Shown: one piece after another, positions 14,628 to 21,212 of the stretch
Position numbering within the stretch: position 1 is the first letter of the stretch
Layout: each line of letters starts with the position of its first letter
NCBI GenBank assembly: GCA_019090455.1
Contig: JAHRWA010000010.1
Span: 62,001-126,000, forward strand
Source of the DNA: Pseudomonadales bacterium
GTDB lineage: Bacteria > Pseudomonadota > Gammaproteobacteria > Pseudomonadales > DC-out160
Direction of reading: 5' to 3'
DNA length: 64,000 nucleotides
Notes under the pieces: generated by a model
Told to the model about the DNA's origin: nothing
The model's input: only the letters and a program-made list of their open reading frames with translations
Database searches by the model: none
Made by a program: the position numbers and the translations under genes

Positions 14628-15386
14628 TTAATTCCTTCTGTACAGCTGTATACAGATCAGCAGCAACGTAATGATGCCAAAACTAATAACAATCCCTAAC
14701 TCGCTCACAAAGCCTTTTCCACCGGTAAAAAAGTACCCAGACTTTCCTGGGATACCCGAAATCACACCACTACCTTTGCCAACAGTCAGCATCCCTTTCA
14801 TACCTTTTTGCATATGTTGAGAAATATCGCAGTGAACAAGATAGGTTTTATCGTCGAGTGGTACGATAAATGTGCCCACCACTGTCTTGCCACCATATGC
14901 CTCCAAATGAAACATACCTCCGTCATACATAAACCGCGGTAACCCGTGAACCATCCACTGATGCCGGACGCTATCCTTATTTTCAAAAGTGACAGTCAGC
15001 TTAGTACAAGGCTTTACTTTGAATTCTCGAGGAAAAAAAGAGAACGTGGTACCTGGGATTTTTTCGGCAGCTTGGCTGTTAGCAATCACATGAAAATTCT
15101 GAGATTCAACAAGACCATCACACCCCAATGGAATGTTATTGGTATTTTCATTCATAACCATACCATTAGAGTCCATCGTCATCCCGTGATGGGCATGACC
15201 TTCCATGTCCATGTGATTATGGTGGTGCTCATGTTTCTGGTCATTACTACTATTATCTTGGTTACTTTGATCTTGGTTACTACTATAAGCAGGCTTAACT
15301 ACCGTCAACATTAATAACCCACAACAAAAGAGCACACTTAAAAAAGATAAAAAATAGTTAGAATAATCACTTCTCATGGTTTTCAT
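14628..15386 (-). CDS. Membrane-anchored cupredoxin with His/Met-rich N-terminal segment
   Basis: 252 residues. Signal peptide (about 10-35), then a short metal-binding-like stretch rich in His and Met (52-78, with KHEHHHNHMDMEGHAHHG). The cupredoxin domain (about 95-203) has candidate type-1 copper ligands H142, C186, H191 and M196 in NKDSVRHQW and LVHCDISQHMQKGM. A C-terminal membrane helix (230-248) probably anchors it facing the periplasm. The start ATG at 15386 has AGGGG upstream and overlaps the stop of the multicopper oxidase gene (ATGA), so the two are co-translated. It is probably the electron or copper partner of that oxidase; direct function is inferred. Confidence 0.85.
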   Translation of the reverse strand: MKTMRSDYSNYFLSFLSVLFCCGLLMLTVVKPAYSSNQDQSNQDNSSNDQKHEHHHNHMDMEGHAHHGMTMDSNGMVMNENTNNIPLGCDGLVESQNFHVIANSQAAEKIPGTTFSFFPREFKVKPCTKLTVTFENKDSVRHQWMVHGLPRFMYDGGMFHLEAYGGKTVVGTFIVPLDDKTYLVHCDISQHMQKGMKGMLTVGKGSGVISGIPGKSGYFFTGGKGFVSELGIVISFGIITLLLICIQLYRRN

Positions 15387-17062
15387 CGGCGTCCCCTTCT
15401 GTAAAACCCAACAACGAGAACAAAAACAGAAAAAACACCGAAGAAACCCATTATTGTTCGCTCCTGCTCATCAAATATCGATTTAAAGAAATCCAGCGCA
15501 TCACTATTTAAGGGGATTTTATTTTCGTTTTGATAGTATTTTGGATCAAAGTACTTATTCCATCCCAATCCAAAAGTAATGGGCCAATTCTTCTCATCTA
15601 AATAATCTTCATAAACGATGGCAGAAAGATTACCACCAGGGGAAACACCTCCTGTGGTTACACCTCTCTCAAAATGATCATGAAAAATCCATGTCCCAGA
15701 ACCATAGCTCCGTAATCCATCATTGGTAGAGTCCAGTTCCAAATCGATGCGCTGAGCTGGCGCAATATGGTGAACATCACGAAATTGTTGAAGTGGCTCC
15801 ACCAATGAGACGCCATCAGCTGCAATTATTTTGGTTTTGTGTCCATGAGTATGGATGGCAATACTCTCAGATCCACCATTTAACACACGCAACAATACTA
15901 GTTCATTTTCAGCGATAAAGACTATTGATTCACGAAAGGTATAGGGAAATGATTTACCGTTTAGGAGGAAATAATCCATTTTTGAATTAGCAACATCATA
16001 ATCAATATTAACGGATTTCAATATTTTTTCGGGATCATTGGAGAATCGCATACGTTCAGATAGTTCTCTGTCCATATCTTGGTAATGTAAATCAAATTCG
16101 TTATCGAAGCGTTCTTTGACTGAGACAGAAGGATATCGCACGTGACCTCCTCCTACATTCAATGACTGAACTCGATTATTTGGTGCTTGCTCCTCGACAA
16201 TTATCATACCTTGCAGGCCAGCCACAATATGTGCATCAGGATGAACATGACAATGATAAAAATAGGTACCTGGCTGGCGAGGTTTAAAGCTGTAGGTTCT
16301 TTTACTTGTCGGCTGAACTGGTTTTTCACTCGTTAAGGGTACACCATCATTGCCCGTACCATCTTCTTTCAAGAAAGGATGATCAACACCGTGAAAATGG
16401 ATGGTATGCGGTAAGAAATGCGTATTCTCTAGGGTTATGTTAACCACATCACCCTGCTCTACTCGTATGACTGGAGCCGGTAATCTCATCAACGGTATGG
16501 CTTTATCTGAATCAAAAGATTCGGTAGACATACCCAATGTCTTAGGAGCAAAAATCCAAGCGGTGGGACTCACTCCTGGTGCGATATCATAAGTCACTGT
16601 TGTCGACCCAGTATCCGAATTAAAACCATTCAATTCGATAACTTCTAGCACAATGTCAATTTCATCTGGATCACCATCATTATCTAGATCCCGCCCCTTG
16701 ACGACAGCATCGGACGATAGTCCACTACTCATTAATGTTGCATGGGAAACGAGATTAGTGCCCACTACCGAGGCTGCTACTAGCTCTGGAGAATCTGGTT
16801 CACAGACTCTGGATCGAGACACGGTGATGCCTTCTAACGTGCGTTCCGCCCTATCCTCTTTTTGGGTTATATCACAAACAGGAAATAAACCTTCCTCGTT
16901 TTGCTCAACATTAGCAACGGTTTTTGCTTTCTTCCAGGACGGTGGCCCTAACAAATCGACTCGAATCTTACGTAATTCCGGATTCAGCCACTCATAAGGC
17001 AGTGCAAATAGACCGACCCCAATTACCAACGCCGCTATCAGTATTGAAATCAAATATCTCAT
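15383..17062 (-). CDS. Two-domain multicopper oxidase, membrane-anchored
   Basis: 559 residues from ATG 17062; a longer frame starts at GTG 17137 without an SD. N-terminal signal/anchor (3-20) and a C-terminal membrane helix (about 539-554). Four HxH motifs that build the trinuclear copper site are present: HFH (222-224), HCH (270-272), HTHGH (404-408) and HDH (461-463). The type-1 copper cysteine occurs only in the first domain (YHCHVHPDAHIVAG). In the second domain Asp replaces it (FHDHFERG), so this resembles the type-C two-domain oxidases. The likely reaction is four-electron O2 reduction coupled to oxidation of Cu(I), Fe(II) or another donor. A calcium-binding-like DLDNDGDPDE segment lies at 125-134. 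Confidence 0.85.
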   Translation of the reverse strand: MRYLISILIAALVIGVGLFALPYEWLNPELRKIRVDLLGPPSWKKAKTVANVEQNEEGLFPVCDITQKEDRAERTLEGITVSRSRVCEPDSPELVAASVVGTNLVSHATLMSSGLSSDAVVKGRDLDNDGDPDEIDIVLEVIELNGFNSDTGSTTVTYDIAPGVSPTAWIFAPKTLGMSTESFDSDKAIPLMRLPAPVIRVEQGDVVNITLENTHFLPHTIHFHGVDHPFLKEDGTGNDGVPLTSEKPVQPTSKRTYSFKPRQPGTYFYHCHVHPDAHIVAGLQGMIIVEEQAPNNRVQSLNVGGGHVRYPSVSVKERFDNEFDLHYQDMDRELSERMRFSNDPEKILKSVNIDYDVANSKMDYFLLNGKSFPYTFRESIVFIAENELVLLRVLNGGSESIAIHTHGHKTKIIAADGVSLVEPLQQFRDVHHIAPAQRIDLELDSTNDGLRSYGSGTWIFHDHFERGVTTGGVSPGGNLSAIVYEDYLDEKNWPITFGLGWNKYFDPKYYQNENKIPLNSDALDFFKSIFDEQERTIMGFFGVFSVFVLVVGFYRRGRR

Positions 17063-17331
17063 ATAGTTGTCTCTAAAATACCGCTTGAATAAAACTGAAA
17101 AATAAAACCGTCTAGGTATAGGACCAGTAAAACGCACCCTACAATCAACAGGTATACATAATCTATCACTTTCATATATTCGGTCAACCGCTATACTTTG
17201 CGCTTTGACGAAAACGACAATACGCCTAAAGGCGAACCTCTTAATCTAACTTACAATCAGGTATATCTAATCAATGATAGATTGAAGCCCAATTAAGGCT
17301 ATATATACTTAGGATATTAAAGCCAACGAAA

Positions 17332-18129
17332 ATGCAAAACAAAGCATACATACACCTGATTTTTTTAATATTGCTTAGCGCAACTCAAAATGCCATGGCA
17401 ACAAAACTTTCCCCCTCTTTGGAAGGAGATGCAGCACCCACCACAATCAGCGTAGCCGTCGCATCAAATTTTACTGTACCCATGAAATTAATAGTCCAAA
17501 ACTTTAAGAAAAAGACTCGACTTAAGGTGAAACTATCTTTTAGCTCTTCAGGCAAGCTGTATGCTCAAATTAGAAACCATGCTCCGTATCATCTATTTCT
17601 ATCAGCAGACACCACTAAACCTATCGCTCTAGAGGAACAATTTTTAACGGTGAAGGCTAGTCGTTTTACATATGCTATTGGTACCCTAGCTCTATGGTCT
17701 CCTAACCCAGAGTTTAAGATCGATGATCTTGCAACATTTCATAATCTGAAAAATAATTACATTGCCATTGCCAACCCCAAAATCGCCCCCTACGGCGCAG
17801 CTGCGGTTCAAGTATTGAAATCTCTAAAATTGTACGACGCCCTAAATCCAAAATTAATTCGCGCCGATAATGTGGCCCAAGCATTTCAATTCGTTTCGAC
17901 GCACAGCGCATTTGCTGGATTTGTCTCTCTATCACAACTACGGGTAAATAACCGTTTTCGAAAAGGATTTATATGGGTAGTACCGCAAAATAAACACTCT
18001 CCAATTCGTCAAGATGCAGTACTTCTATTACCGGGGAAAAGCCATAAGGGAGCTATTCAACTAATGAGGTATCTACAAAGTGTAGAAGCCAAAAAAATCA
18101 TGGGTGGCTACGGATACAGACTGCCTTAA
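17332..18129 (+). CDS. modA: ModA-like periplasmic molybdate-binding protein, orphan
   Basis: 265 residues. Signal peptide (1-23, ending AMA). ModA-type opening TISVAVASNFTVPMKLI (38-54), SFSSSGKLYAQI near 70, and NPKIAPYGAAAVQVLKSL near 150, all conserved in the molybdate/tungstate solute-binding family. No modB or modC permease/ATPase gene is beside it, so it either works with a distant transporter or binds another oxyanion. It is transcribed away from the copper oxidase pair and converges on the isocitrate dehydrogenase gene with only 7 bases between the stops. Confidence 0.8.
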   Translation: MQNKAYIHLIFLILLSATQNAMATKLSPSLEGDAAPTTISVAVASNFTVPMKLIVQNFKKKTRLKVKLSFSSSGKLYAQIRNHAPYHLFLSADTTKPIALEEQFLTVKASRFTYAIGTLALWSPNPEFKIDDLATFHNLKNNYIAIANPKIAPYGAAAVQVLKSLKLYDALNPKLIRADNVAQAFQFVSTHSAFAGFVSLSQLRVNNRFRKGFIWVVPQNKHSPIRQDAVLLLPGKSHKGAIQLMRYLQSVEAKKIMGGYGYRLP

Positions 18130-18136
18130 TCACTCA

Positions 18137-19894
18137 TCAATTATTATTCGAAATACAACTCAATAAATTACGCTCAACAGCATCTAAGAAACCAAACATA
18201 TTCACAACGGTTTCGTTACTGGGATCAGACGTCTTTCCCTTTAAATCCCCTGTAATCGTACCCTGCCCTACGGTATCAATCAACGCGGTTTTGAGCGCTT
18301 CCGAATAGGCAACGAGATCTTTATTGTCATCCCGTAACCCCATCGTTTCCAAAGAATTGGCAACGGCAAACAATAGCGCCGAAGAATTAAAGTGAGCATC
18401 TTTACCATCAGATTCAATAAATTTCAAATAGAGGTCATGCGCTGTGCCATGGGGCGCTTCATACAGCATTGTTCCATCTTTACTTTCAATAATAGAACTC
18501 GCTGTCGCTAAACTACCGCCCAACGCGGCTGCGATATCAGAAAAAATATCACCATCCAGATTCAGAGCAGGATAAATTCCTTTTCGAGGGGGGTCGGTGA
18601 TCATCTTTTTAAGCTGACTGGATGGCCTCATCACCATAAAGGATGGAGGTTGAGTGTTATCCGCCACTAACTCTTGCCTAACTTCACGAATGACGGCACT
18701 GAACACATCATCATATTCCATGTATTCTCGCTTTAGGCCAAAATAGATTTCTTTGTCATTGTATGCCGCATCTCTAAAAACTTGACTTACCCAATCCTTT
18801 ATCGCTTCTCGGGAATTGGCCATAAATATGATAGGGTCGTTCTTTCGTATTTTTCGAGCGCACTTTTCCTCCCCATCCAAAACCACCTTTAATATGCCAT
18901 CTTCTACCGCTGGCATATTAAAACTGCCATATTGATCTCCACCTCCTGCACTCATGCGCGAGATAGAGACACTAAACTTTCGATCAGGGATGCCATATTT
19001 TTTCAGAGTCCGCACTAGCTTAAATAATTTTCTACCCGAAGTATTTTCTGGCACTCCCCATAAAGCTCGTTTTGGCGGATTAGAGATAATTCTCGCAGCT
19101 TGTGCATCGATGAGTTCGTAATGATAATCAATACCTGTTTTCTTAAATTTTTCTTTATACTCCTGCTCAAAAATATCTTCTATTACCTTTCTCATCACTC
19201 CGTCATATCCAGGAATAACGGTGTCTTTCAAACCCAAATAGGCATCTCGATTTTCAGAAATCGCTCTTTGGAAAAAATTATGGGCCCACTCTTCTACTTT
19301 AGAAATATCATTAGATGCCAATAACCAGGGATCTCCTTTTTCGATTTCACGTCGATGCAATTCAACAGGATCGCCGTTCTTGCCAACAAAAAGAACCTTA
19401 ATAATACCGGTCACTTTGGATAGCTCATTGTGACTATGTTTATTACCCCCTCCAGACATAGTCTCCACTTCAATGTCCCGACCAATCCAATCAGGGGTGA
19501 GTCGCTTGATATTATAGAAAGGGATATCTTCTCTCCTAATATTTCCACCGATCCCTTTACGAATAGCACCGTTCGGCGATTTAGTCGCAAGAGGGTCCAT
19601 CATTTTTCTGTCAATGGAGGGATGCTTTGCTAACAGGCCATCTAATTGCTCTCGATTTACGGTCATGCCAGCATTTTTAATACCGACACCATGCTGGATA
19701 AGCGCATCAATAGACTCATGTATAACTTTCCCGTTTGTCAGCACTCTGTTTTCCGCGGACAAATCGATTTCAATCAACTTAATGTCTAATTTGGACGATA
19801 TAAATTGCTCCACTACTCGCTCGAATGCCACTTGCGCCATTTCATCTCCGTGTAAAAGAACAAGAGGACTATTGACCTTAATTTTATTTTCCAT
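18137..19894 (-). CDS. Isocitrate dehydrogenase-like protein with duplicated clasp/small domain
   Basis: 585 residues against about 410 for the eukaryotic-type NADP isocitrate dehydrogenase it resembles. The large-domain start (LVLLHGDEMAQVAFERV) and the substrate loop KSPNGAIRKGIGGNIRRE (S106, N108, R112, R121) plus R131 fit the family. The central clasp/small-domain segment then appears twice: about 137-280 (GGGNKHSH, catalytic-type lysine K223 in GLKDT, aspartate D263 in LID) and about 303-442 (GGGDQYGS, K388 in GLKRE, but no matching LID aspartate). After the second copy the large domain resumes with metal ligands D447, D449 and D453 (LDGDIFSD), then EAPHGTAHD. Start ATG 19894 with AGGTG upstream. 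Oxidative decarboxylation of isocitrate or a related 2-hydroxy acid is likely; actual substrate is unproven. Confidence 0.8.
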   Translation of the reverse strand: MENKIKVNSPLVLLHGDEMAQVAFERVVEQFISSKLDIKLIEIDLSAENRVLTNGKVIHESIDALIQHGVGIKNAGMTVNREQLDGLLAKHPSIDRKMMDPLATKSPNGAIRKGIGGNIRREDIPFYNIKRLTPDWIGRDIEVETMSGGGNKHSHNELSKVTGIIKVLFVGKNGDPVELHRREIEKGDPWLLASNDISKVEEWAHNFFQRAISENRDAYLGLKDTVIPGYDGVMRKVIEDIFEQEYKEKFKKTGIDYHYELIDAQAARIISNPPKRALWGVPENTSGRKLFKLVRTLKKYGIPDRKFSVSISRMSAGGGDQYGSFNMPAVEDGILKVVLDGEEKCARKIRKNDPIIFMANSREAIKDWVSQVFRDAAYNDKEIYFGLKREYMEYDDVFSAVIREVRQELVADNTQPPSFMVMRPSSQLKKMITDPPRKGIYPALNLDGDIFSDIAAALGGSLATASSIIESKDGTMLYEAPHGTAHDLYLKFIESDGKDAHFNSSALLFAVANSLETMGLRDDNKDLVAYSEALKTALIDTVGQGTITGDLKGKTSDPSNETVVNMFGFLDAVERNLLSCISNNN

Positions 19895-20175
19895 AGAGAC
19901 ACCTAGTAACTCAAATTCATTTACAATTCGCTAATATATTAGATCAAAGATTCAACCTCTCTATTAGTTTAGTAGGCTATTTTGTAAATTCGAATCTAGG
20001 TGCCGAAGTAGCTATAGCCAACCGCAATGGCGATACGCCTTTACATAAATTCATTGAAGAAAAAGGAATATTTGATTCGTCCCTATATCTGTTTTTTGTT
20101 TGGACAAACATCGATTTAATTCTTACCATAACAAAATCACATTAATTGTTTCCATTTAGCCGAGAAGAGCTACTC

Positions 20176-20742
20176 ATGCGATCCTTAAGAAATCACTTTG
20201 CAGTTCTGGTTTTTATAATGAGCATTCTATGGGGAGTTCATCTTTTAAATTATTTTCTAGGATATTCACTCTCTAATTATGGGTTAATACCTAGAAATGT
20301 AGGACATCTATACGGAATTATCACTTCACCATTTTTGCATGCGGACTTCACCCACATCGTGAGTAATTCGATACCTCTTTGTTTTTTATCTCTACTTTGT
20401 CTGACACGAGGAAAAATTTTTTTCTTTGCCAATAGTCTATTTATCATTGTAATTGGCGGTGCTTCAGTATGGCTATTTGCTCGTTCGGCAAATCATATAG
20501 GTGCCAGTGGCTGGATATTCGGTTTATGGGGTCTTTGTATCGCTTCCGCTTGGTTTCAACGCAATTTACTTTCTATTACTGTTGCAACGATCGTCATCGT
20601 TTTATACGGCGGAATGATTTGGGGAGTTCTACCTTCGCATCCTAGCGTGTCTTTTGAAGGGCATTTCTTTGGAATGATAGCGGGTGTAATTGCGGCTTGG
20701 ATTGGTAAAAAGCAAAAAAAATCGAACGTGCAGAACGACTAA
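20176..20742 (+). CDS. Rhomboid family intramembrane serine protease
   Basis: 188 residues from ATG 20176 (GAAGAG seven bases upstream); a TTG ten codons earlier is less likely. About six membrane helices. Catalytic dyad: S111 in HIGASGWIFG and H163 in EGHFFGMIAG. HADFTHIVSNS (55-65) supplies the His/Asn oxyanion residues seen in GlpG. It cleaves membrane proteins within the bilayer; the substrate is unknown. It stands alone, diverging from the isocitrate dehydrogenase gene. Confidence 0.9.
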   Translation: MRSLRNHFAVLVFIMSILWGVHLLNYFLGYSLSNYGLIPRNVGHLYGIITSPFLHADFTHIVSNSIPLCFLSLLCLTRGKIFFFANSLFIIVIGGASVWLFARSANHIGASGWIFGLWGLCIASAWFQRNLLSITVATIVIVLYGGMIWGVLPSHPSVSFEGHFFGMIAGVIAAWIGKKQKKSNVQND

Positions 20743-20858: not shown

Positions 20859-21212
20859 CTACGTCATCACACCAGGCCGAAACGGTCGATTTCCATTTCC
20901 ATTTCGTTGACCATAACCACCATTATTTCCAGCGTTTCTATTATTGTGATTATTTCCTTGTTTATTATAATTATTTTGATTATTTTGATTATTTTGATTA
21001 TTTTGGTTGTTTCGCGTACTAGATAATTTTACTTTTTTAGCAACCAGCCCCGATTTTTCGGCACCTACTTCAAACTCAACTCCTACACCAACCCTTAGAT
21101 ACTGGCAATTTAATAAATCTGCTTTTCGAACCATTATATCTGGTCCTTCACCATTATCTAAAAAGCCATAATTTTTATCTCGAAACCATTTTTTAACAGT
21201 TGTCTTCAACAC
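20859..21212 (-). CDS. Cold-shock-domain protein with Asn/Gln repeat tail
   Basis: 117 residues. Residues 3-65 form a CspA-like nucleic-acid-binding fold: VKKWFRDKNYGFL contains the RNP-1-like KNYGFL, followed by GPDIMVRKADL. The rest is low complexity: NNQ units, then NNHNNRN and a GGYGQRNGNG stretch like an RGG/RNA-binding tail. Likely an RNA chaperone. Start: GTG at 21212 with AAAGGT eight bases upstream; TTG is the next codon. A 9-bp tandem repeat encodes the tail. Normal CspA proteins are about 70 residues, so this is an extended form. Confidence 0.8.
   Translation of the reverse strand: MLKTTVKKWFRDKNYGFLDNGEGPDIMVRKADLLNCQYLRVGVGVEFEVGAEKSGLVAKKVKLSSTRNNQNNQNNQNNQNNYNKQGNNHNNRNAGNNGGYGQRNGNGNRPFRPGVMT
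20971..21006. repeat. 9-bp tandem repeat (4 copies) encoding NNQ units
   Basis: TTATTTTGA is repeated head to tail at 20971, 20980, 20989 and 20998 (last copy ends GG). It is in frame and a multiple of three, so copy-number change would lengthen or shorten the protein tail without a frameshift. Confidence 0.85.

Follow-up and report, generated by a model that had tools for sequence, protein, structure and literature searches.

The locus described here raises the question of why an isocitrate dehydrogenase (IDH) should carry its small (clasp) domain twice in a single chain, and what each copy would contribute to the active site. The window, i.e., the whole 64,000-nucleotide stretch of DNA that was analysed, contains on its minus strand an open reading frame (18137..19894) of 585 codons with no internal stop, which, judging from the frame and its family matches, encodes a 585-residue NAD-type IDH of the ClIDH family. 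The small domain is present twice, as copy 1 (approximately residues 137–281) and copy 2 (approximately residues 309–443). Residues 141–279 and 309–441 share 24% identity and 48% positives (BLAST E 1e-13), and the Smith–Waterman score of copy against copy is 123, whereas none of 2000 shuffles scored above 55. In an AlphaFold2 model of the single chain, the order of strands and helices in residues 140–281 is repeated in residues 310–443, giving two like domains. The family was examined in 53 rows (52 distinct), in each of which the copy–copy score exceeds the best of 200 shuffles of its own second copy. Thus, the doubling of the central segment that the sequence-only reading had claimed is real. 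A frameshift, assembly or fusion artefact was rejected because the same architecture is common to all 53 rows.

The Halomonas and Marinobacter relatives of the window protein are 70–71% identical to it, no full-length match at 35%–69% identity was found in the three genome samples, and the short stretches of 36–41% identity come from other superfamily genes; besides the gene studied here, leuB is the sole PF00180 gene in this genome. The host of this doubled-clasp IDH is a marine bacterium. By its size, residue numbering and coenzyme residues, the window protein appears to be a member of an already known family, that of ClIDH from Congregibacter litoralis KT71 (EAQ96042), which the available text of a 2015 paper (PMC4420465) describes as an NAD-specific type II homohexamer of 580 residues, with identities to ClIDH of 67–89% within the family and with Halomonas and Marinobacter likewise among the relatives. 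N272, M314, SAGG 315–318, G319, D487 and L488 carry the same numbers in both proteins, and as far as the published description goes there is no difference of kind between them. The copy-2 region is called there a "163-residue insertion" (272–314 plus 319–438) that is absent in ordinary type II IDHs (PMC4420465, available text). The window protein carries this extra segment at the same numbers, and its matches to solved IDHs cover residues 3–271 and 443–579 with a gap between. No member of the ClIDH family turned up among solved structures, where the closest relatives are ordinary type II IDHs. The sequence-only reading had known of no described IDH with this arrangement, a statement that does not survive the 2015 description of ClIDH, although that description does not present the insertion as a duplication: no word beginning with "duplicat", "repeat" or "pseudo" occurs in the available text of PMC4420465, and no such description was found in the accessible part of the open-licence PubMed Central literature, including PMC5979607, PMC7460673, PMC10574006, PMC8287583, PMC4360740 and PMC10380307.

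The coenzyme site lies at D487-L488 (18431..18436, minus strand), where Asp and Leu are present in 53/53 family rows and Arg and His in 28/28 type II rows. PMC4420465 gives Asp at position 487 as a hallmark of NAD specificity and reports that the D487R/L488H exchange switched ClIDH to NADP, suggesting that the NADP type first assigned to the window protein is probably wrong. NAD specificity, like the hexamer and the loss of activity without copy 2 discussed below, is taken from ClIDH and would hold for the window protein by analogy with this published relative.

In ordinary (type II) dimeric IDHs, the active site is shared across two chains. Along the chain of the window protein, the residues of this site are distributed as follows (all coordinates on the minus strand). 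Residues 1–136 (19487..19894) align with the first part of the large domain of solved type II IDHs and contain the substrate residues T78, S106, N108, R112 and R121, each invariant in 53/53 rows. Copy 1 (residues 137–281, 19052..19486) is type II-like and keeps K223 (19226..19228), which aligns with K212 of 1lwd, the Lys that a dimer partner contributes, and D263 (19106..19108), which aligns with the partner-donated metal Asp (D252 in the 1lwd chain), both in 53/53 rows; at the places of the substrate Arg and Tyr it has T145 (53/53) and K152 (51/53, with Arg in the other 2). A linker (residues 282–308, 18971..19051), with a helix at 284–300 in the model, leads to copy 2 (residues 309–443, 18566..18970), which is monomeric-IDH-like and keeps D320 as well as the putative substrate residues R313 (18956..18958), equivalent to human IDH1 R132 in the repeat alignment, and Y322 (18929..18931), equivalent to the Tyr of EEYGSH in monomeric IDH, each in 53/53 rows. 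The counterpart of Y322 in human IDH1 we take to be Y139. Copy 2 also keeps K388 (18731..18733, 53/53), the equivalent of K223, and has S425 (53/53) at the place of the Asp. Residues 444–585 (18140..18565) complete the large domain as its second part and contain the coenzyme site together with the metal ligands D449 and D453 (and D447).

The residues named in the sequence-only reading, i.e., K223 and D263 in copy 1, K388 without an aspartate in copy 2, and D447/D449/D453 after copy 2, are all where it had placed them, but its list was incomplete, since only copy 2 has equivalents of the two within-subunit substrate residues that ordinary IDHs carry in their GRHA-GDQY motif, an Arg and a Tyr. 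The division found here, with the partner-donated Lys/Asp in copy 1 and the within-subunit Arg/Tyr in copy 2, is seen in 53/53 family rows, whereas all four corresponding residues lie in the single small domain of the type II IDHs (28/28). Two points stand against this picture. According to PMC4420465, the substrate residues of ClIDH are completely conserved relative to type II IDHs. K388 is invariant, yet stands outside this simple division of roles; its position in monomeric IDH is held by Asp in 17/18 rows and by Ser in 1/18.

Compared with the type II NADP-IDHs (human IDH1/2, yeast Idp1, Thermotoga IDH), the window protein is 28–34% identical over its N-terminal half including copy 1 and has the same substrate and metal residues, whereas those enzymes have one small domain and a different coenzyme pair. 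The full-length match of ~400–420 residues expected of a type II enzyme falls into two stretches with ~170 residues between them, and the model NF006156 gives 235.7 bits against a cut-off of 335. The arrangement that does fit is that of monomeric (type III) IDH (Azotobacter vinelandii 1itw, Campylobacter corcagiensis 7y1u, and L005, which is encoded in this same genome), in which a large domain is likewise split around two tandem small-domain copies, with K256 and D351 in repeat 1 and Y421 in repeat 2 (18/18 rows). A domain duplication in monomeric IDH was reportedly described by Yasutake in 2002, so that the arrangement had a precedent in this enzyme too. The monomeric enzymes are longer (~740 residues; 739–749 among the 18 extracted), with insertions and roughly 60 last residues that have no counterpart in the window protein, and structural alignments to them show 13–18% identity.

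The AlphaFold2 model of the window protein (mean pLDDT 79, pTM 0.72) has low confidence at the active-site loops 225–228, 314–323, 445–447, 460–464 and 482–487. Among the best 50 Foldseek rows, the TM-score per query length is 0.62–0.70 for monomeric IDHs and 0.38–0.42 for dimeric subunits. VIA aligned 548–554 of the 585 residues with eight monomeric-IDH-family entries at 4.4–6.6 Å and two dimeric subunits over 386–396 residues at 4.2–4.5 Å, the Z-scores of monomeric and dimeric IDHs being tied (27.5–29.5 in the rows shown). For a member of the family from Halomonas, a second model (pTM 0.67) gave Foldseek values of 0.62–0.67 for monomeric and 0.39–0.42 for dimeric IDHs, with dimeric IDHs first by E-value. 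The predicted architecture of the window protein in the present analysis is thus that of the 740-residue monomeric IDH.

We consider it probable that the ClIDH family consists of NAD-dependent IDHs with a tandem small-domain duplication, in which a single chain acts as a pseudo-dimer containing one active site and the chains form a hexamer. In such a metal-dependent enzyme, NAD would be bound by the large domain, as would the greater part of the substrate; copy 2 would take the place of the subunit's own small domain and supply R313/Y322, copy 1 would take the place of the partner subunit's small domain and supply K223/D263, and each copy would have lost most of the half it did not need. The active site would then be closed within one chain, and the pseudo-dimers would assemble into the hexamer. 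That one chain could replace the dimer partner had been suggested from the sequence alone, and this part agrees with the invariant division of residues and the monomeric-IDH-like models. The free monomer suggested with it is unlikely by analogy with ClIDH, because the recombinant protein ran at ~390 kDa in gel filtration and ~350 kDa in ultracentrifugation, which was read as a homohexamer (PMC4420465, available text); monomeric IDHs are reported as monomers, dimers or tetramers, not hexamers.

An alternative with the same division of residues is a swapped hexamer, in which each chain lends its copy-1 Lys/Asp to the active site of a neighbour and no chain is self-sufficient. Sharing of sites across chains in ordinary IDHs speaks for it, as do the ClIDH homohexamer without a detected dimeric fraction and the loss of both assembly and activity when residues 272–314 and 319–438 of ClIDH were deleted, which left an inactive protein of ~50 kDa (accessible part of PMC4420465). 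However, the single-chain models of two members show the monomeric-IDH arrangement, and in monomeric IDH this division of residues is functional inside one chain, so that this alternative is judged unlikely. Far less probable is a reading close to that of the ClIDH authors, in which copy 1 would be the ordinary small domain, with the additional 163 residues serving just to hold the hexamer together. The greater similarity of copy 1 than of copy 2 to ordinary IDHs and the abolished hexamer would agree with it, but the inserted segment is itself a small-domain copy, and the chain has no counterparts of the substrate Arg and Tyr outside it. Mapped on the window protein, the deletion removes the linker and copy 2, including R313, Y322 and K388, and the copy 1 left behind is without the Arg/Tyr; correspondingly, the shortened ClIDH was inactive despite its kept copy 1 (PMC4420465, available text). 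It is also very improbable that the substrate is another 3-hydroxy acid (homoisocitrate, isopropylmalate, tartrate or malate), as the superfamily and weak partial matches to models of such enzymes might suggest, since between them the two copies contain every type II isocitrate residue that was checked, the closest curated model for the window protein is an isocitrate dehydrogenase matched by 41/41 members, and ClIDH was assayed as an IDH (PMC4420465, available text).

The likeness to monomeric IDH extends to the sequence. The monomeric-IDH family PF03971 (cut-off 25 bits) matches 37/41 members at E<=10 with a best E of 1.8e-8, and in 10 members scanned in detail 9 matched at E<=0.1 and 2 above 25 bits, whereas the window protein has no match and the type II IDHs have 0/28; since unrelated Pfam families reach E ~1e-3 by chance in the same scans, weight is placed on the matches well below that value and on the 0/28 control. 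The NCBIfam monomeric-IDH model TIGR00178 matched 1/41 members at E<=0.001. In profile comparisons, copy 2 scored 40.9 (E 5e-6) against monomeric repeat 2, which in turn is closest to copy 2 (44.2 with the 7y1u piece, vs. 22.5 for copy 1, 22.9 for its own repeat 1 and 16.6 for the type II domain; with the 7y1u piece alone, copy 1 scored 30.7 over 36 columns vs. 35.9 for copy 2). The match of the ClIDH family to monomeric IDH extends beyond copy 2, across the linker and into the domain after it, the two halves of the large domain taken separately matching weakly for family and type II alike (E 0.04–0.7). The linker aligns with the corresponding position of monomeric IDH but is not significant by itself (6/60 shuffles reach its score), and it was dropped as a separate proof of a single duplication. 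These matches, which form the homology bridge found here, show that copy 2 and the following domain are detectably homologous to monomeric IDH, and that copy 1 and the N-terminus are of type II.

One duplication shared by the ClIDH family and monomeric IDH is favoured, although not proven. We lean, by little, towards the ClIDH family being a surviving intermediate of one ancient tandem duplication in a type II IDH, which would have made a one-chain pseudo-dimer out of the dimer and after which one branch would have stayed compact and hexameric while the other gained insertions and became the monomeric IDHs, by now so diverged as to be hardly recognisable. In the best repeat tree, copy 2 and monomeric repeat 2 group together (94/82; 98/94 without repeat 1), as they do in a quick tree from a second repeat alignment (75). 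The main competitor, somewhat less probable but a serious one, is that the two families doubled independently and converged under the same division of roles. Copies 1 and 2 are nearer to each other (98.0, E 6e-16) than either is to monomeric IDH; for copy 1, the match to monomeric IDH is not significant (E 0.11, best stretch in repeat 2). Monomeric repeat 1 is nearer to the type II domain (38.9) than to copy 1 (19.4). Type II IDH is itself not devoid of likeness to monomeric IDH, as its small domain matches repeat 1 in a profile comparison (40.3, E 3e-4, 108 columns). Omission of monomeric repeat 2 brings copies 1 and 2 together as a pair (89/80, with a lead of 0.44 log units), and the AU test rejects no alternative repeat tree (p 0.15–0.49), with long branches meeting. 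Against independent doubling stand the preference of monomeric repeat 2 for copy 2, the best tree, and the extension of the match through the linker and following domain. Recent papers treat monomeric IDHs as independently evolved, one of them recalling an earlier idea of duplication. A chimera, in which copy 2 was acquired from the cell's own monomeric IDH gene (such a gene is present in 9/21 genomes carrying the window-type gene) and entered a type II IDH, would explain the mixed matches of the two copies but is hardly credible, because copy 2 is far closer to its own copy 1.

Gene context was tried as a clue to function and dropped as uninformative, because conserved neighbours are absent across the 42 loci compared (the window region and L035–L075), with recurring neighbours only lineage-specific and in at most 5 of the 42. 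Of the 21 genomes that carry a window-type gene, 20 also encode another IDH, which belongs to the monomeric or the type I NADP family, and the enzyme may act in the cell as an NADH-making IDH beside this separate one. The pseudo-dimer reading would explain why truncated ClIDH was inactive and monomeric. It also opens the path from dimer to single chain to tests by mutation, in which two residues per copy should be enough to tell own-chain from partner roles. The ClIDH family would then provide a sequence link between the dimeric and monomeric IDHs and a compact stage of the process that may connect them.

The isocitrate dehydrogenase (IDH) gene lies at 18137-19894 on the minus strand of the window, an open reading frame of 585 codons uninterrupted by a stop. 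The top curated models for its product are type II (dimeric, eukaryotic-like) IDHs, and solved type II chains cover it in two stretches, 3-271 and approximately 443-579, leaving about 170 residues between them. The sequence-only reading had proposed an internal duplication of the small (clasp) domain, which was borne out: when residues 131-292 were compared with 293-450, 141 aligned columns showed 24% identity, the BLAST E-value was 1e-13 and the local score was 123, with a maximum of 55 in 2000 shuffles. Copy 1 spans approximately 137-281 and copy 2 approximately 309-443. The copy-versus-copy score exceeded the best of 200 shuffles in all 53 aligned members (52 distinct) of the family formed by the NAD-dependent IDH of Congregibacter litoralis (ClIDH) and its relatives, and an AlphaFold2 model of the window protein (mean pLDDT 79, pTM 0.72) has the identical strand-helix order at 140-281 and 310-443. 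Thus, the duplication of the clasp domain is real and conserved.

K223 and D263 of copy 1 align with K212 and D252 of the porcine IDH structure 1lwd, two positions that the partner subunit supplies in a dimeric IDH. The GRHA-GDQY motif contains an Arg and a Tyr, which are R132/Y139 in human IDH1 and R133/Y140 in 1lwd; at these two places copy 1 carries T145 and K152, and copy 2 carries R313 and Y322. All 53 family members keep K223, D263 and T145 in copy 1 (K152 in 51, Arg in two), R313, D320, Y322, K388 and S425 (replacing Asp) in copy 2, and D447, D449, D453, D487 and L488. Type II IDHs hold all four residues (Lys, Asp, Arg and Tyr) within a single small domain (28 of 28), and monomeric (type III) IDHs, which have a tandem repeat of their own, keep K256 and D351 in their first repeat and Y421 in their second (18 of 18). 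This division, across the copies and in monomeric IDH, suggests that copy 1 stands in for the partner subunit and copy 2 for the subunit's own domain, the same roles as those of monomeric repeats 1 and 2, respectively. K388 (window positions 18731-18733), which corresponds in copy 2 to the catalytic Lys, is followed by R389, E390, Y391, Y394 and D395, all invariant in the same 53 rows, whereas the K388 position is occupied by Asp or Ser in monomeric IDH; these residues may have a role in contacts with the substrate, with the coenzyme or within the hexamer.

Among the 50 best Foldseek matches of the window-protein model, the best whole-length Protein Data Bank matches are monomeric IDHs, with TM-scores per query length of 0.62-0.70 over about 700 alignment columns, and dimeric subunits reach 0.38-0.42 at 16-18 Å. 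In VIA, alignments with monomeric IDHs cover 548-554 of the 585 residues at 4.4-6.6 Å; among the dimeric matches listed, some span 232-239 residues at 2.1-2.8 Å, some 268-345 at 3.2-5.2 Å, and the remainder 368-403, mostly at 16-18 Å with three at 4.2, 4.5 and 7.8 Å (1lwd, 396 residues at 4.2 Å). The VIA Z-scores of monomeric and dimeric IDHs are tied at 27.5-29.5 among the matches listed. The Halomonas ventosae member was also modelled (pLDDT 76, pTM 0.67), and this model gave Foldseek TM-scores of 0.62-0.67 for monomeric versus 0.39-0.42 for dimeric IDHs, with dimeric IDHs first by E-value, and both models are weak at the active-site loops. According to a 2004 structure mapping, residues 164-397 of monomeric IDH are an insertion relative to a dimeric superfamily member, and therefore the second repeat occupies the subunit's own place (PMC544345). 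Copy 2 is assigned to the place held by that repeat, i.e., to the subunit's own domain.

A Pfam scan of 41 family loci (E up to 10) found the dimeric-family model PF00180 in all 41 and the monomeric-IDH model PF03971 in 37 (best E = 1.8e-8). In a closer scan of ten members, nine matched PF03971 at E up to 0.1, two of them scoring above the cut-off (290-545 and 292-542); the window protein itself gave no match. Each copy was also scanned by itself: of 20 copy-2 segments (277-445), 17 matched PF03971 and none PF00180, and of 20 copy-1 segments, 11 matched PF00180 and none PF03971. In the controls, PF03971 was found in 0 of 28 type II and 18 of 18 monomeric IDHs, one of the 18 also matching PF00180 (E = 0.12). 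Against the Protein Data Bank, the family profile reached monomeric IDH 7y1u over 277-523 (E = 1.1e-5); the top two chains for the copy-2 profile were the monomeric IDHs 7y1u and 6g3u, both weak (E = 0.0042 and 0.022), and the best for the copy-1 profile were type II (5e-16). A further model, derived from the second repeats of 18 monomeric IDHs together with one 7y1u piece, matched all 53 family rows and none of the 28 type II rows; the family matches listed, the strongest and the weakest, all fall in copy 2, with the window protein the weakest of those listed (i-E 9.9e-4). In profile comparison, 503 columns of the whole family align co-linearly with monomeric IDH (E = 7.5e-5, probability 62%), scoring 46.4 against 27.0 for the best of 60 column shuffles. 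Counting against such a bridge are the lack of a PF03971 match in the window protein and its bottom rank among the rows listed, the NCBIfam monomeric-IDH model, which matched one of 41 members, and a profile match of type II IDH to monomeric repeat 1 (score 40.3, E = 3e-4).

From these sequence comparisons, we lean slightly towards a single duplication shared by the family and monomeric IDH. Monomeric repeat 2 scores 40.9 against copy 2, more than against any other domain compared (17.1 for copy 1, 21.5 for its own repeat 1 and 16.6 for the type II domain), and the best repeat tree pairs it with copy 2 (94/82; 98/94 when repeat 1 is omitted). Two separate duplications, one in each lineage, are favoured by copies 1 and 2 being each other's closest (score 98.0) and pairing in a tree without monomeric repeat 2, by monomeric repeat 1 having its closest match in the type II domain and not in copy 1, and by the lack of a significant match for copy 1 in monomeric IDH (E = 0.11); none of the alternative trees was rejected (AU p 0.15-0.49).

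The best reading is that a single chain would be a pseudo-dimer with one complete active site, in which copy 1 would supply the partner-type Lys and Asp (K223, D263) and copy 2 the own-subunit Arg and Tyr (R313, Y322), such chains then assembling into hexamers. The family is already known, as ClIDH: the enzyme of C. litoralis KT71 is an NAD-specific homohexamer of 580-residue chains with coenzyme residues Asp487/Leu488, and its authors reported 38 relatives sharing 67-89% identity, among them those of Halomonas and Marinobacter (PMC4420465). Its 163 extra residues (Asn272-Met314 and Gly319-Trp438) were termed an insertion that both polymerisation and activity require (PMC4420465), and N272, M314, S315-G318, G319, D487 and L488 have identical numbers in the window protein. 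Deletion of 272-314 and 319-438 yielded a protein of about 50 kDa that had no activity (PMC4420465), which fits the pseudo-dimer because this deletion takes away the linker as well as copy 2 and the sole Arg/Tyr in it, whereas a mere insertion would be expected to leave a remainder behaving like an ordinary dimeric IDH. The earlier statement that no described IDH has such an arrangement is thus not supported, although the published account calls the segment an insertion. Words starting with "duplicat", "repeat" or "pseudo" are absent from the text of PMC4420465, and the accessible parts of PMC5979607, PMC7460673, PMC10574006, PMC8287583 and PMC4360740, all but one of which cite the ClIDH paper, describe no duplication in ClIDH. 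In the accessible parts of the open-licence PubMed Central texts searched, the "insertion" is nowhere described as a further copy of the clasp domain, one that splits the active site between the copies and links type II with monomeric IDH.

A protein of at least 70% identity occurs in 15 of 95 genomes of the relatives' sample (two partial, L017 and L019), 7 of 369 of the class sample and 4 of 398 of the phylum sample; the samples overlap, each including the window's own genome. No full-length match at 35%-69% identity was seen in these three samples, and the remaining strong matches at E up to 1e-20, of which the class sample has 2 and the phylum sample 121, show 28-34% identity and are confined to the N-terminal half; those extracted, 28 in number, are ordinary type II IDHs of 403-410 residues. 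The contig scan gave 41 family loci (40 full, one partial), including Halomonas, Marinobacter, Motiliproteus and Hahella. Two class-sample loci, L079 (genome G205) and L080 (G144), have one stop codon each inside the match (TAA and TGA, respectively), possibly the ordinary protein end near the C-terminus. No conserved gene neighbours were found among the loci compared. In the window, the gene is flanked by genes for a multicopper oxidase (15383-17137, minus), an extracellular solute-binding protein (17332-18129, plus), a rhomboid protease (20146-20742, plus) and a 117-residue protein (20859-21212, minus) that weakly matches the cold-shock domain (PF00313, E = 1.4e-4, below cut-off) and has a tail rich in Asn, Gln and Gly with NNQ repeats; of the loci compared, only L035 shares the order cold-shock protein, rhomboid, IDH.

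The window's own genome also encodes a monomeric IDH of 740 residues (contig C40:44079-46280) with His and Arg at positions 590 and 601, NADP-type by the rule in PMC4360740, so that one cell holds two duplicated IDHs of different size (585 and 740 residues). This genome gave no match to the type I NADP IDH model TIGR00183, and its only other PF00180 gene is leuB. Among the 21 genomes carrying the family gene, monomeric IDH occurs in nine, type I NADP IDH in 13, both in two and neither in one, which is 88% complete. Because a second IDH co-occurs in most of these genomes, the family enzyme is likely the NADH-making IDH of the cell.
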